From Pseudomonadota bacterium (lineage in GTDB: Bacteria; Pseudomonadota; Gammaproteobacteria; Acidiferrobacterales; UBA6901), in assembly GCA_021785515.1 (NCBI GenBank), contig JAJYEX010000004.1, forward strand, positions 143,074 through 207,073: a stretch of 64,000 bases of DNA, given 5' to 3'. The notes under the pieces were generated by a model. The model saw only the letters and a list, made by a program, of their open reading frames with translations, was not told the origin of the DNA and did no database searches. Each line of letters starts with the position of its first letter. The first letter of the stretch is position 1. Shown here in pieces: positions 4,437 through 22,109 of the stretch. A program made the translations under genes and the position numbers.

Positions 4437-5670
4437 GTTGTATGCCGGGTAGACTGGAAAAGTCTGCGGGCTAAGCAAGGTGCTTCGCAGGAAGCAGGCT
4501 GCGCAGGTCCACTACAATGAAGAAGTGGTGGACGACATCGTCCCAGAATCGCAGTAGGCATCGGCGAGGCTTAAGTGGTGTTGATCTTGGAAGTATATTT
4601 TTTCGCATTACCCGCCCGTTTCCGGCGTTTCCCAACATTGCTTTGTAGCTGAACATCGCTGAGTCTCTTGTGCGTACATCTCTCGGGGTATTGCATTTGT
4701 CATCAGAAGCCTGATTCAGGCTCTATTTTTTCTGGAATAGTGACCTTTCGTCCCAACTCATTTTGAAAATTTCTGACGCAGCCTTAGCATAACTCGCAGC
4801 TACCGAAAGCAAGTCATTGGCGGTCGCCTAATTATGCAATGATTCGGCACAATTTCAATAATGTCACATTGTTGCTGATGTATCGAACTGTCTTTCTCGT
4901 GAATGGTATTAACAATGACAGCTAGCGTCAGACCGATTTTTTGGGCTGAAAAGGTGCGAGTATGTAGAGGCGACTTCCTCTGCGTATGCGATAACTCATT
5001 TTCAGTGAAAGAACTTTCGTTGCATCAGGGGCCGTTACGGCGGCGGTTGCCACGCGCGTGCGGTGCGTAGCGATGTTTTGTCGTCCTTGTTTAGATCACA
5101 GATTGCAATAGACTAGGAGCGACGTCGATATGCGACCTTTTGCGCAGGTAGAGAGGTCGTGCCGCATTTGTATCCGCGAGTCGGTGCGATGTACGACGCC
5201 TGCGAATGCGAACATGTCGTGTAACCGGCGCCACTGTGCGGAGTTCGTTTTGGAGACCATCTCTCATGCGACGAGGTTTTATCCGGAGGAAAGTCAGGAT
5301 ATAGATCCCTCAAAGACGGTTCATGTGCTGGCCGCCGCAATTGTCGACGTTTTGCGCCCGACGTTCTGTTGTAGACGAAGCGATTTTATCAAGGTTGAGA
5401 TATAGCGGCACACGCCGCTCGCTCTATGTGGTGCCGTCCTGAATGTTCACCATGTGACTGATGTCAAGCCATGCGAGGTCAATACCTACAATATCGTTAT
5501 ATCATAGGCTCAGGTTTTTTGCGCTATGGAACGGTATTAAACGCATTTCTATCGTATCCATATTTTTTCCCAACGGGACTCATTCATAATTCGCACAATA
5601 CCGAATTGCGATGCCGAGTAGTTTTGTTCAGCGCCGACCAATCGAGAGAGTCAATTGTTTCAATGTACAA
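4437..5670 (+). other. Long A+T-richer stretch with no recognisable gene
   Basis: About 1.2 kb between the exporter and the first repeat copy. It is visibly richer in A+T than the housekeeping part of the window. Several short open frames exist (for example 5130-5405 and 5471-5767), but none resembles a known family and codon use looks random. It may be the remains of a deleted gene or a long leader. No RfaH-type ops element was found. Confidence 0.4.
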
Positions 5671-5958
5671 CCGCTGCGCGCCAGGGAGAGCGAAGCGCGG
5701 GCGTGTAGTCCCGGGAGGCGTTGGGTCACCTAAGCCGGTATCCGTAGACCGCCTTGGCCCAAGATGATCTGAAACGCCGTGAAGTCATTGCGCGGATAAA
5801 CGATTGGCAGGCCCCGTGCAAGTGCACGCCTCTTGATGGACAGGCACAGCCGTGCCGTGAGCGGATGCGCGGGCATATAGAGTGCGCCTAAATCCGAGTG
5901 CGCGAAGGTGACTGGGGTTCAGCCGCCCATCGCGAGGGCCGGCGCACATACGAAATTT
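5671..5958 (+). repeat. Direct repeat R, copy A (non-coding, ~288 bp)
   Basis: This stretch aligns along its whole length, by eye, with copy B at 6709-6987. Shared blocks in order include GCGAAGCGCGG, CATTGCGC, AACGATTGGC, TGATGGACAGG or CGATGGACAGG, GCCGTGCCGTGAGCGGATGC, GCGCC, CATCGCGA and GCACATACGA. It ends about 20 bp before the start of the heptose guanylyltransferase gene. Neither copy has a conserved reading frame, so this is non-coding DNA rather than a gene remnant. Confidence 0.8.
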
Positions 5959-5978
5959 AAAGGCCTGGGGGTTGTTGT

Positions 5979-6701
5979 ATGATTTCGCATCAGCCAAAAG
6001 AAGTGATTATTCTGGCTGGTGGTTTGGGAACCCGCTTACGTTCAGTTGTCCGTGACCGCCCCAAACCAATGGCCTTAGTGTCGGGGCGTCCATTTCTCGA
6101 ACATCTTATGGACTATTGGGCAAAACAAGGGATTTCTCGTTTTGTTTTGTCAGTTGGCTATCTCGCCGGAAGCATCAAGGCGCACTTTGGCCGCTGTTAT
6201 TGTGGCTGCAGTATTGAATATGTCGAGGAAGCAGCTCCTCTTGGTACAGGCGGCGGTTTTCGGCAAGCATTGCAATACACGCTTTGGCAGCAGCAATATG
6301 TAGTGCTAGTAAATGGCGATACCTGGTTCGAAGTGGATTTGGCACGGCTGACTCGGGATGCGCATCAATCCCGCCTGCCAGTTACTGTTGCCCTGAAGCC
6401 ATTGCGAAGTAATGACCGATACGGTGCGGTTCGCATTGACGAGAACAACCGGATCGTGGAATTTGGTATCAAGACCAGTGGTTCGTGCCTGATTAACGGC
6501 GGCTGTTATTTTATTGACGTTCAGGCGGTAGCCGAGGCGTTGTGTGAATACCCAGAGAAATTTTCTTTGGAAGGCGATTTGCTTGCGCAAATGGCAAGAA
6601 ACGGGAAAGTTGGGGCGAGCATTCAGGATGCTACTTTCCTTGATATCGGCATACCTGCCGATTATCACCGGTCCGCTAATGTAATTGGGCTAAAGAAATA
6701 A
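5979..6701 (+). CDS. hddC: Heptose-1-phosphate guanylyltransferase-like nucleotidyltransferase
   Basis: A 240-residue sugar-nucleotidyltransferase, most like HddC/WcbM, which makes GDP-D-glycero-alpha-D-manno-heptose from the 1-phosphate and GTP. The binding loop LAGGLGTRLR is at residues 12-21, followed by RPKPMALVSGRPFLE; the metal-binding NGDTWFE is near residue 112, and DIGIPADYHRS is close to the end. Length fits HddC. The matching kinase HddA is encoded at 15952, which supports heptose over mannose or glucose as substrate. The gene lies alone between two copies of a ~280-bp direct repeat, as if it were a movable unit. A related NDP-hexose specificity cannot be excluded. Confidence 0.8.
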   Translation: MISHQPKEVIILAGGLGTRLRSVVRDRPKPMALVSGRPFLEHLMDYWAKQGISRFVLSVGYLAGSIKAHFGRCYCGCSIEYVEEAAPLGTGGGFRQALQYTLWQQQYVVLVNGDTWFEVDLARLTRDAHQSRLPVTVALKPLRSNDRYGAVRIDENNRIVEFGIKTSGSCLINGGCYFIDVQAVAEALCEYPEKFSLEGDLLAQMARNGKVGASIQDATFLDIGIPADYHRSANVIGLKK

Positions 6702-6708
6702 CATCTGT

Positions 6709-6987
6709 CCGCTTGCTGCGCGCTAGGAACGGCGAAGCGCGGCCGCGTAGTCCGCGGGCGGCGGATCCCGGCAGGTGACCGAAGGCTAGTTGCAAGGACA
6801 CCCGAAATGCCGTCCAACCATTGCGCAGACGAACGATTGGCGGGCACCCAGCGAGCGCACGCCGCTCGATGGACAGGAGTGGCCGTGCCGTGAGCGGATG
6901 CGGAGGCACAAAAGTATGCGCCGAACTGGGAGCGCGATCTGGATGTCCGGTCGCGCATCGCGAAGGCCAGCACACATACGATTTTCT
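6709..6987 (+). repeat. Direct repeat R, copy B (non-coding, ~279 bp)
   Basis: Diverged second copy of the repeat at 5671-5958, in the same orientation, starting 8 bp after the stop of the heptose guanylyltransferase gene. The spacing from copy start to copy start is 1038 bp, so repeat plus gene form one unit. The block GCCGTGCCGTGAGCGGATGC is identical in both copies, and the flanking blocks keep their order with small insertions and deletions. Confidence 0.8.
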
Positions 6988-16935: not shown

Positions 16936-17512
16936 TCAGAAGGGTGGCGCGGTGGTTGTCCATTGCTGGATAGTGATATTCCATGTGATGCAGTGAGAAA
17001 TGGGTCCCAATTCCTGGACACTGCCTTAAAAGCAAATGGCGCTTACTTGGCGCGGTGTTGATAAAACTTCTGAACATTTCTTTTTCCAATGTGATGAGCT
17101 GATGAGATGGACTCCTCCTTGCGGCTGATGGTTGAGATCGCTGGGCCGCGTGACGATGCGGCCGGCTCCTCTCAGTCTGACACTTTAGTTGCCGTCCTGG
17201 CAGGGAGGAGTCCATATACGCCCCGGGTTTTGAGGGGACTCCAACATCCGCTGCGCGCCATGCGAAGCGAAGGGGGCGCGTTGTCCGTATATGGACTGAT
17301 ATGGAAAAAAAAGGTACCAAGTTCTATTTCGACTTTGAGTGAAAGAGACGGACAAGTCGGCCAGTTTGAACGGCCAATAACCAAGCATGACAAACGGATA
17401 GGGGCTTTTAGTGAAGAACCAATACGATATAAAGAGCGGCCGTTGCTACCGGATTCAAAACTGAAGGAGGAATATACTAAACACCAAACACCAAACACCT
17501 GTTTACAGGGAT
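16936..17512 (+). other. Non-coding gap with inverted repeat
   Basis: About 580 bp between hddA and the next glycosyltransferase. Besides the inverted repeat described separately, the final part has AAGGAGGAATATACTAAAC, but this lies ~35 nt before the chosen start. Short open frames match no known family. Confidence 0.4.
17209..17297 (+). repeat. Inverted repeat enclosing a segment similar to the start of repeat R
   Basis: AGTCCATATACG at 17209-17220 is exactly complementary to CGTATATGGACT at 17286-17297. Inside, CCGCTGCGCGCCA (17248-17260) followed by AGCGAAG matches the beginning of repeat copy A at 5671. It may be a solitary miniature element or a truncated third copy of repeat R. Confidence 0.55.
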
Positions 17513-19792: not shown

Positions 19793-19837
19793 AGGCCCAT
19801 CGTGAAAACGAGTGGGTAAAAGTTGCTCATTTTTCGA

Positions 19838-20988
19838 TCAAATCTGAGGCAGCATCGAGGCGAGGATCTTGAGCCTCAGGTATTCCTCATCGCGCAATCC
19901 GTAGGCGCGGCGCTGGAGGACGCGGATCTTATTGTTCAAGCCCTCGACGAAGCCAAGCGAGACTTTGTTCTCGGGGTGACAGTAAGCCGCGATGCCGTCC
20001 CAGTGCCGCTCGATCATCTCGGCGAACTTCTCGTAAGGCGAGAGGCGCTGCCACCTGAGGCTTGCCCGCCAGTTTTCGAAGAACTTGCGCGCCCATGCTT
20101 CGCGCTCGTAGTCCCAGAGTTGACCGAAGGACTCTTTGAGCAGGTAGGCGGTGTTCAGGCGCTTATTAGCGGCCAGCAGCCGCTTCAGGTTCTTGTGTGC
20201 CGTGCCGGTGAGGTTTTGCGGATGCGACAGCAATGTATATTTCTGTCCCTTGATGAAGTGGTGTTGCTTGCCTTGAAGGCGCGCGTACTCGGATTTTCTG
20301 ACCTTATCCAGCGCCTCGCCCAGGTGCTTCATGACGTGGAACTTGTCGAACAGGATGGCCGAGCGCGGGGCGTTCTTCTGCGTCGAATTGCGAAACGGTT
20401 TCCACATGTCCATGACGGTGAGCCGTATGCGCTGGGCCTTCTTTTCCCCGAGAAATCGATAGAACTCATCCATGCTCGCCTCGCTTCTGTCCTCACCGCC
20501 AAACCAGATCGGGCGACGGCGAATGAGGTCGCTCACCACGATCCGGTAGCTGTGCCCCTTTCGGATCGAGATCTCATCGATTCCCACGACCTGAGGTCCC
20601 GGGGTCCCGATGCGTTGCAGCTGTTCGCGCATGTAGTCCATTTCCAGCCGCTTGACCGTCTGCCAGTCCAAATGCAGCTCGGCGGCGACATCCTTAGATG
20701 GTGCCAGCGCGACAGCGCCGGCCCACGTAGCGCGCAAAGCGCTTCGTGTGCAGCGCGTTCTCGACCAGAAAGTCCAGCCGCTCCCGCTTCACCGTGCCGC
20801 ACTGGCGGCAGGCCACCCGCCGCACCTCCACATCGAGGTAGATGCGGTAGTCGGCGCAGGCGATATCCCGCACCCGCCGGCGCTTGCGGTCGTACCAGGT
20901 GTGATGGGTTGTACCACAGGCACCGCACACCGTTTTTTTCCCCGCCGAATGAGCGTGATGAGGCGAGCACCCGGGTCACCGAAAGAAG
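19838..20988 (-). pseudogene. Frameshifted ISL3-family transposase
   Basis: Minus-strand ISL3 transposase. The 299-residue C-terminal part is open (20737-19838) and shows VVGIDEISIRKGHSYRIVV and DMWKPFRNS, with AILFDKFHVMKHLGEALD following. The N-terminal zinc-finger part, CGACGTTHHTWYDRK to FARYVGRRCRAGTI, is in another frame. An extra T near 20695 (ATC-T-AAG where ATC-AAG is expected) separates them, and a run of seven A residues near 20935 shifts the frame once more. The 5' end meets the neighbouring IS3 element, so the element's own right end is missing or displaced. It is not expected to work. Confidence 0.87.
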
Positions 20989-21007
20989 TGGCCCCGCAAA
21001 TTCGAAC
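20984..21007 (+). repeat. IS3 left inverted repeat
   Basis: Starts AGAAGTGGCCCCG. It pairs with 22237-22260. Confidence 0.8.
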
Positions 21008-21073
21008 AGTGCGATAAGTGGAAACTCCGGGCATCATGCCGGGTCATGAATGGCTTGGCGAGAAGGAGTTTTG

Positions 21074-21384
21074 ATGACGAAGAAATCAGGACGCCGTACC
21101 CGCCGCACCCACAATGCGGAGTTCAAGGCCCGTGTCGCCTTGGCCGCCCTGCGCGAGGACAAAACGCTGGCGGAGCTCTCGGCGCAGTTCGAGGTGCATC
21201 CGAACCCGATCACGGAATGGCGCCGCCAGCTGCTGGAGAACGCGGCCAGCGTTTTCGCAGGTGCAGCCGGCCAGGGCCCCGTGGACTTGGCCCCGTTGCA
21301 TGCCAAGATCGGACAGCAGGCTCTGGAGTTGGATTTTTAGAACGCGCGCTCACCCAAGCGGGTTTGCTGAGCGCAAAGCGATGA
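21074..21384 (+). pseudogene. IS3-family OrfA (helix-turn-helix), frameshifted
   Basis: Begins [20 protein letters not shown] at ATG 21074, with GAGAAGGAG upstream as ribosome site, and carries the HTH segment [20 protein letters not shown]. The expected ending [17 protein letters not shown] is in the next frame because one T is missing near 21337, so the ORF stops early at 21340. Confidence 0.85.
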
Positions 21385-22109
21385 TCGACCGTGAACATGG
21401 GCTGCCCATCACCTGCCAGGCCCGGCAGCTCAACATCAGCCGGGGAACGGTGTACTACCTGCCGAGATCGGCAAGCGACGCCAGTTTCAGCGCGAAGGCA
21501 TCGAGGTCGGCCGGCGCCATGTGCGCACGCTCATGCGGCGCATGGGCATCGAGGCGCTGTGTCCCCAGCCGGGCACGAGCAAACGCAACCCGGGGCACCA
21601 GGTCTACCCCTATCTGCTGCGCAGCCTCACCCTCACCCGGGCCAACCAGGTCTGGGCGCTGGACACGACCTACATCCCCATGGCGCGAGGGTTTGTGTAT
21701 CTCACCGCCGTGGTGGACGTGGCCAGCCGCATGGTGCTCGCACACAAGGTCGCCATCACCTTGGAGTCTTGCCATGCCAGGGAGGTCATCGAGCAGGCCT
21801 TCGCCCGCCATGGTGTTCCCGAGATCGTCAACACCGATCAGGGCAGCCAGTTCACGGCCGAGGAGTTCACGGACGCCGTCCTCGATCGGGGCTGCCAACT
21901 GTCGATGGATGGACGTGGAGCGCCTGTGGCGCAGCGTGAAGTACGAATGCGTGTATCTCAAGGCCTATGACGGTGTCAGCGCCGCCCGGGCCGACATCGG
22001 CCGCCACATCGACTGGTTCAACGCGCATCGGGGGCATTCAAGCCTCCAGGACCTCACGCCGCTTGAAGCCTACCTGAACCTGTTGCCAACCCACCAGGAG
22101 GCTGCATAG
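21381..22109 (+). pseudogene. IS3-family OrfB (DDE integrase), deleted and frameshifted
   Basis: Starts MIDREHGLPITCQARQLNIS. About 30 residues are then missing before REGIEVGRRHVRTLMRRMGI. The catalytic core WALDTTYIPM and VNTDQGSQF is present, but the region around SMDGRG has lost the usual residues before ERLWRSVKYE, and the frame changes there. The ending HRGHSSLQDLTPLEAYLNLL is normal. Two of the three catalytic acidic residues remain in one frame and the third in another, so no active enzyme is made. Confidence 0.87.

Follow-up and report, generated by a model that had tools for sequence, protein, structure and literature searches.

A dispersed family of structured, protein-less repeats of about 280 bp, represented by two copies around a nucleotidyltransferase gene in a gammaproteobacterium

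The window analysed here, a stretch of 64,000 nucleotides, contains a PF00483 nucleotidyltransferase gene (hddC, 5979-6701) enclosed by two non-coding repeats, which raises the question of whether gene and repeats form a cassette or whether the repeats came to this locus on their own. The arrangement described in an earlier note, a direct repeat pair flanking a single nucleotidyltransferase gene, is confirmed: the two copies, c1 and c2, lie on the same strand and have diverged, with 71% of 284 aligned positions identical (E about 4e-29). The coordinates given there (5671-5958 and 6709-6987) located the repeats correctly but ran a few bases too long relative to the ends set by our covariance model R1 (5672-5952 and 6714-6980), which has both c1 and c2 among its sequences. 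We consider both repeats to be copies of a non-autonomous mobile element that inserted here long ago and independently of each other, with a probability of roughly 0.75. The features of the window that bear on this reading are the following.

5672..5952 (281 bp), plus strand: c1, a full-length but decayed copy of the element (CGCTG...CATACG); R1 168 bits, second model R2 E 1.3e-12; empty site in the congeneric genome G002
5673..5709, plus strand: P1 hairpin of c1, the 5' end of the fold, placed by the covariation of P1 in the family
5880..5946, plus strand: 3' domain (P5) of c1, placed by the family alignment and fold
6714..6980 (267 bp), plus strand: c2, a full-length but decayed copy; R1 166 bits, R2 weaker at 17.4 bits (E 7.8e-4); alignment with G002 resumes immediately to the right of CATACG
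6715..6751, plus strand: P1 hairpin of c2, placed by the covariation of P1 in the family
6915..6976, plus strand: 3' domain (P5) of c2, placed by the family alignment
17249..17290, plus strand: a third copy, approximately the 5' hairpin only, cut by an apparent IS junction; R2 E 4.2e-4, R1 17.1 bits; exact CGCTGCGCGCCA
5668 (c1), 6710 (c2) and 17245 (third copy), plus strand: the C at position -4 of the left flank, read in the sequence, the rule being drawn from 78 of 79 left flanks

Judged from their mutual identity, c1 and c2 are old, worn copies of the element. No ORF belonging to the element was found, and the earlier statement that the copies hold no shared reading frame is consistent with the indels between c1 and c2, not all of which are multiples of three. 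The 20-base block noted previously is indeed identical in c1 and c2; as a functional core of the family it does not hold, because it lies mostly in a stretch before the 3' domain that differs in the copies of family f4. Across lineages, similarity is greatest in the 5' hairpin and in the 3' domain.

Spread and fold of the repeat family

The repeats belong to a dispersed family of elements of about 280 bp. Within this genome, c1 and c2 each retrieved 17 places when used as query (the query's own counted), on both strands and on several contigs, and R2 gave 18 matches in 15 of 16 loci. The search for copies in related genomes that the earlier note had suggested was also productive: c2 matched 14 of 60 genomes, its own included, and a better preserved copy from G039 matched 25 of the 57 genomes of the order, representing 7 of 27 genera. 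With R1, 47 of the 369 genomes in a class-wide sample (39 of 272 genera) proved to carry the family, at most five candidates being scored per genome, and the R2 scan of the phylum found it in 3 of 398 sampled genomes, one of which is the present genome and another of which has the 3' part only. On this sampling, the family is mainly gammaproteobacterial. R2, which uses 55 pairs, holds no sequence from the genomes of this order and includes a viral contig of unknown host (L343); that it nevertheless recognises the copies of the order indicates that the structure is common to several lineages.

A pattern scan of named genome contigs yielded 37 stretches, all in MAG-titled records ("Proteobacteria bacterium" bins, one Acidiferrobacter sp. 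and two "Acidobacteria" bin contigs). The two last-named stretches (L125 and L127; JAJYFA, "Acidobacteria" bin DBS1-1.bin77) are copies of the element, and the bin shares its sample prefix with other host bins; the presence of the element there reflects either transfer or mis-binning. In IMG/VR, one pattern had no match, a second matched four stretches, two of which, L343 and the partial copy L342, have model support, and two further patterns matched L343 only. L343 (IMGVR_UViG_3300021511_000007) is a full copy scoring 109.9 bits, with C at -4, on a contig classed as viral. The plasmid and phage databases gave no match in searches from which records near this genome may be missing.

Some hosts carry copies that are nearly or fully identical. 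G004 has seven copies at different places that are identical over 288 bp, and G373 has five, identical over 286 bp; in G191, four copies are 98-99% identical and a fifth about 96%, and the six copies of G090 are 94-99% identical. Apart from the C, the flanks of identical copies are unrelated. Identical copies at different places show that the element has moved recently in some hosts.

In the lineages looked at, well-preserved copies start with CGCUG or a close variant, followed by the 10-bp hairpin P1 with a loop that is often AUGGAGAGCGAAGCGAA, by P2 closing the arms P3 and P4, by a linker, and by P5, the 3' domain, which contains an inner hairpin; the last six or so bases form a tail that mostly ends in G. 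The 10 pairs of P1 are formed in 93.1% of cells across 42 sequences, with 40 cells showing two-sided change against 11.4 +/- 2.2 in shuffled alignments, none of 500 being as high. For the whole element, the fold of one sequence (90 counted pairs out of 92 predicted, the conclusion on covariation resting on the 90) was projected onto 24 sequences, in which 86.7% of cells are paired. The earlier note had proposed a check for covariation. In our count, two-sided change affects 46 pairs and 238 cells, whereas the shuffles gave 32.3 and 72.4, none of 500 being as high, and controls in which the fold was slid along the alignment reached at most 64 cells; the shuffles ignore relatedness and some of the 24 sequences are near-identical, so that sequences rather than events are being counted. 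A subset of 55 pairs, chosen after weaker pairs were dropped on inspection, is paired in 93.1% of cells and shows two-sided change at 31 pairs and 185 cells, against 20.4 and 51.9. The whole element thus forms one conserved, covarying secondary structure, from one base inside the left end to about six bases before the right end. The earlier proposal of an unknown miniature element or a structured RNA fits on both counts at once.

Does this structure act as RNA or as single-stranded DNA? With RNA parameters, the plus strand folds more stably in 28 of 29 copies, the exception being c2, in which the minus strand does better; the same preference is seen in all 12 copies of a second set, two of which are common to the 29. 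Such an asymmetry could also arise from single-stranded DNA. Among 29 pairs set by Watson-Crick covariation, G-U and A-C cells stand at 14:7 (p 0.19). These comparisons lean towards action as RNA rather than as single-stranded DNA.

Insertion sites and the hddC locus

The left flanks of the copies share a single base. A C occupies position -4 at 78 of 79 distinct sites picked by the P1 pattern (background frequency of C, 0.24) and at 48 of 49 sites of an earlier, hand-collected set overlapping the 79; the right flank shows no base preference. The congeneric genome G002 supplies an empty site for c1: cutting out 5672-5952 produces a gap-free alignment across the junction with the orthologous stretch. 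When removals of 281 bp were scored against G002, those starting at 5669-5672 tied as best (150.9), followed by a start at 5693 (149.1), the uncut sequence scoring -12.5. For c2, the right junction agrees with G002 and the left side does not align.

Insertions into genes provide a second view of the junctions. Joining the flanks exactly leaves an uninterrupted reading frame of 60 codons on either side in 22 of 87 rows, whereas joins that are 1 or 2 nt short do so in 14 rows each; the rows include at least six copies entered twice, one in a vapC-type gene. At 50 codons the difference is weaker (29 exact, against 17 and 22). A Pfam domain crosses the junction in four of four joined proteins (DAO, IS5-type DDE, EthD and Tn3 DDE), these being the known-looking ones among 11 and the EthD match lying just over the cut-off. 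The element lies in sense orientation in the EthD gene and antisense in the other three. Neither the empty site in G002, nor the frame joins, nor the joined proteins revealed a target-site duplication. Insertion is precise, at C-N-N-N^CGCTG, without duplication or deletion of the target where this could be checked, and in either orientation relative to genes.

The same relative bears on the suggestion that the repeats allow sugar genes to be swapped. G002 has the same gene order as the window (transporter, hddC, epimerase), and no copy of the element is present in the 7.9 kb fetched from its locus (best score 7.0 bits, E 0.36). The empty site, together with the shared gene order, indicates that c1 inserted cleanly next to a gene pair that was already there. 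Between the window genome and G002, hddC is 80% identical, within the 75-87% range of the other longer aligned stretches of the locus, and thus bears no sign of exchange. Homologues of hddC at E 1e-20 are present in 7 of the 57 genomes of the order, the present one included, a close one (78%) being found in G002 only. Although one gene does sit between two direct copies, a cassette in which paired repeats promote gene exchange by homologous recombination is very improbable, given that G002, the one relative bearing on this, has the same hddC locus without repeats, that copies are scattered, and that the copies listed for this genome include no other pair less than 5 kb apart save two pieces of one interrupted copy. 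That c1 and c2 flank hddC looks like the outcome of two chance insertions.

Candidate routes of movement

The enzyme that moves the element is probably encoded elsewhere and would act in trans. In the leading candidate mechanism, the plus-strand transcript would be the mobile form; once folded, it would be bound by a trans-acting protein and, much as a SINE is, copied into the target. We regard such movement through an RNA copy as a tentative choice, placed ahead of an HUH transposase and then of a recombinase, with something else altogether given the same weight as the latter. Inspection by eye of 14 loci with a match to the right end showed at least eight without the left part in up to 230 bases upstream (L048, L357-L361, L363 and L365), L358 and L359 having common upstream DNA. 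Loss of the 5' part with an intact 3' end is the pattern expected from reverse transcription, but copies without a 3' end also occur (10a; L199). The RVT_1 reverse transcriptase profile had no match in G090 and G180, both hosts of copies; its absence from G090, with copies 94-99% identical, weakens the RNA-copy route unless a reverse transcriptase of another family is involved. In a set of 24 genomes whose copy status comes from searches scoring limited candidates per genome, RVT_1 was matched in 13 of 15 genomes with copies and in 4 of 9 in which no copy was found. More generally, the ORFs near copies, judged by eye, point to no single partner, although IS110-like and group II RT-like ORFs recur near a minority of them.

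The next candidate, somewhat less favoured, is an element that moves as single-stranded DNA, mobilised in trans by a transposase of the Y1 or another HUH type in the manner of IS200/IS605 or REP-RAYT, with P1 and P5 serving as single-stranded DNA hairpins near both ends and the flanking C as part of the target motif. The lack of a target duplication, the hairpins near both ends and the target preference on the left side only all agree with this, and Y1 was matched in 12 of the 15 tested genomes with copies, but also in 6 of the 9 in which no copy was found. However, Y1 had no match in the present genome (G000), G002 and G364, whose copies may be old, and G004, with its seven identical copies, has only a Y1 gene interrupted by a stop. 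Furthermore, a single conserved base lies 4 nt away from the junction, in contrast to the motif that abuts it in IS200/IS605, and the fold spans the whole element, beyond what end hairpins need.

A recombinase of the tyrosine, serine or IS110 type, acting in trans and leaving no duplication behind, is somewhat less probable again. It would account for the clean junctions, and both a cluster of ORFs near copies that includes IS110-type proteins (7 genomes, assigned by eye) and the IS110-type ORFs inside copies at L047 and L213 could be read in its favour. Against it, the IS110 genes occupy differing positions in the copies, like secondary insertions, the empty site of c1 leaves no shared core dinucleotide, and the flanks of identical copies have nothing in common beyond the C.

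Finally, an ordinary MITE, a terminal deletion derivative of a DDE insertion sequence, would be small, non-coding, dispersed and multi-copy as the element is, but is rendered highly improbable by the absence of a target duplication, the weak likeness of the two ends, the full-length covarying fold, and the failure to observe a parent IS with both ends, the IS91 candidate being an insertion inside a copy.

Several other elements were encountered in or beside copies. IS91 was rejected as a parent: at L101 (G023), a Y2 transposase of IS91 type, carrying a tyrosine-recombinase domain at its N-terminus (L101:466-2274), lies between the two halves of a copy, and other IS91 copies match L101 from inside the insertion only. 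The profile PF04986 was matched in none of five genomes of the genus; the control genomes gave no match either. IS110 was likewise set aside as a parent, the IS110-type ORFs of L047 and L213 lying at different places and being treated as secondary insertions. At L047:2290-3700 (G000:C9:217290-218700), an IS110-type transposase is inserted in a copy right after GTAGTCCG. The truncated third copy of the window, starting at 17249, is broken off at this very point, again with the GTATATGG letters, a coincidence which suggests that the IS may favour the P1/P2 junction. Upstream of c1, in antisense, lies a stretch that, by eye, looks like what is left of the start of an IS110 transposase (5440-5510, minus strand). 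A short insert with a sequence close to ACCAGCC-TTCGGC-AATG recurs at different places in the copies of L213, L230, L101 and L102; it is either a small REP-like hairpin or an IS end. Transposase-like ORFs, again recognised by eye, occupy 19823-22109, just after the surface-sugar cluster, where GC content rises from about 45-49% to more than 60%.

Comparison with known systems

No family of Rfam 15 matches the element over its cut-off. The titles listed in our literature search, with subscription papers outside its scope, contain no description of the element, which does not establish its absence from print. The closest Rfam signals were two weak matches of Transposase-2 RNA (RF03015) in L083 (25.8 and 20.9 bits, where the cut-off is 42.7), one within the 5' portion of a complete copy, the other overlapping the 5' part of a partial copy; the family had no match over the cut-off in the 57 genomes of the order and none up to E 5 in 18 class-wide loci.

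Several known systems share some of the properties of the element. The HEARO or omega RNA of IscB transposons (RF02033) is a structured RNA of about 200-300 nt, tied to a mobile element that makes no target-site duplication, and copies without the nuclease exist. The likeness lies in the similar size, the RNA-like structure, the tie to a mobile element and the lack of duplication; the difference lies in the identical copies of our element at unrelated targets. RF02033 had no match in the element loci up to E 5 or 10, and no IscB-type ORF was noticed, by eye, among the ORF clusters near copies. Group II introns, likewise structured mobile RNAs that insert precisely and without duplication, have GUGYG...AY ends; the element resembles their ORF-less forms in being mobile, with an RNA-like structure and precise, duplication-free insertion, but its ends differ. 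Models of group II introns had no match in the element, in a scan that does detect a group II intron nearby (L087, 3000-3116). Moreover, the element also inserts antisense in genes, where splicing could not spare the host gene, and a self-splicing, gene-sparing intron is therefore rejected as a general explanation.

The REP/BIME-RAYT systems are similar in consisting of dispersed, short structured repeats without a protein of their own. REP hairpins, however, are 20-40 nt long, whereas the element is a 280-nt multi-domain fold, and the present genome has no Y1 match. IS200/IS605 elements have a tetra- or pentanucleotide directly adjacent on the left. The element shares with them the lack of duplication, but no Y1 was matched in three of its hosts (G000, G002 and G364) and only the C at -4 is fixed in place of an adjacent motif. 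The combination of target-site duplication and terminal inverted repeats typical of DDE-type MITEs was not found.

These comparisons leave room for an undescribed class of protein-less, multi-domain RNAs of about 280 nt, widespread in Gammaproteobacteria and inserted in trans at C-N-N-N^ without duplication. As a reading we advance it tentatively and hold it to be rather less than an even bet; such a class would be either a bacterial counterpart of SINEs or a new form of RNA-directed integration. A complex fold conserved across the class, combined with recent movement in several hosts, should entail a protein partner and a biochemical activity. With clean insertion and so simple a target rule (a C three bases upstream), the mechanism lends itself to direct testing, and the element may point the way to an integrase or reverse-transcriptase system not yet described.
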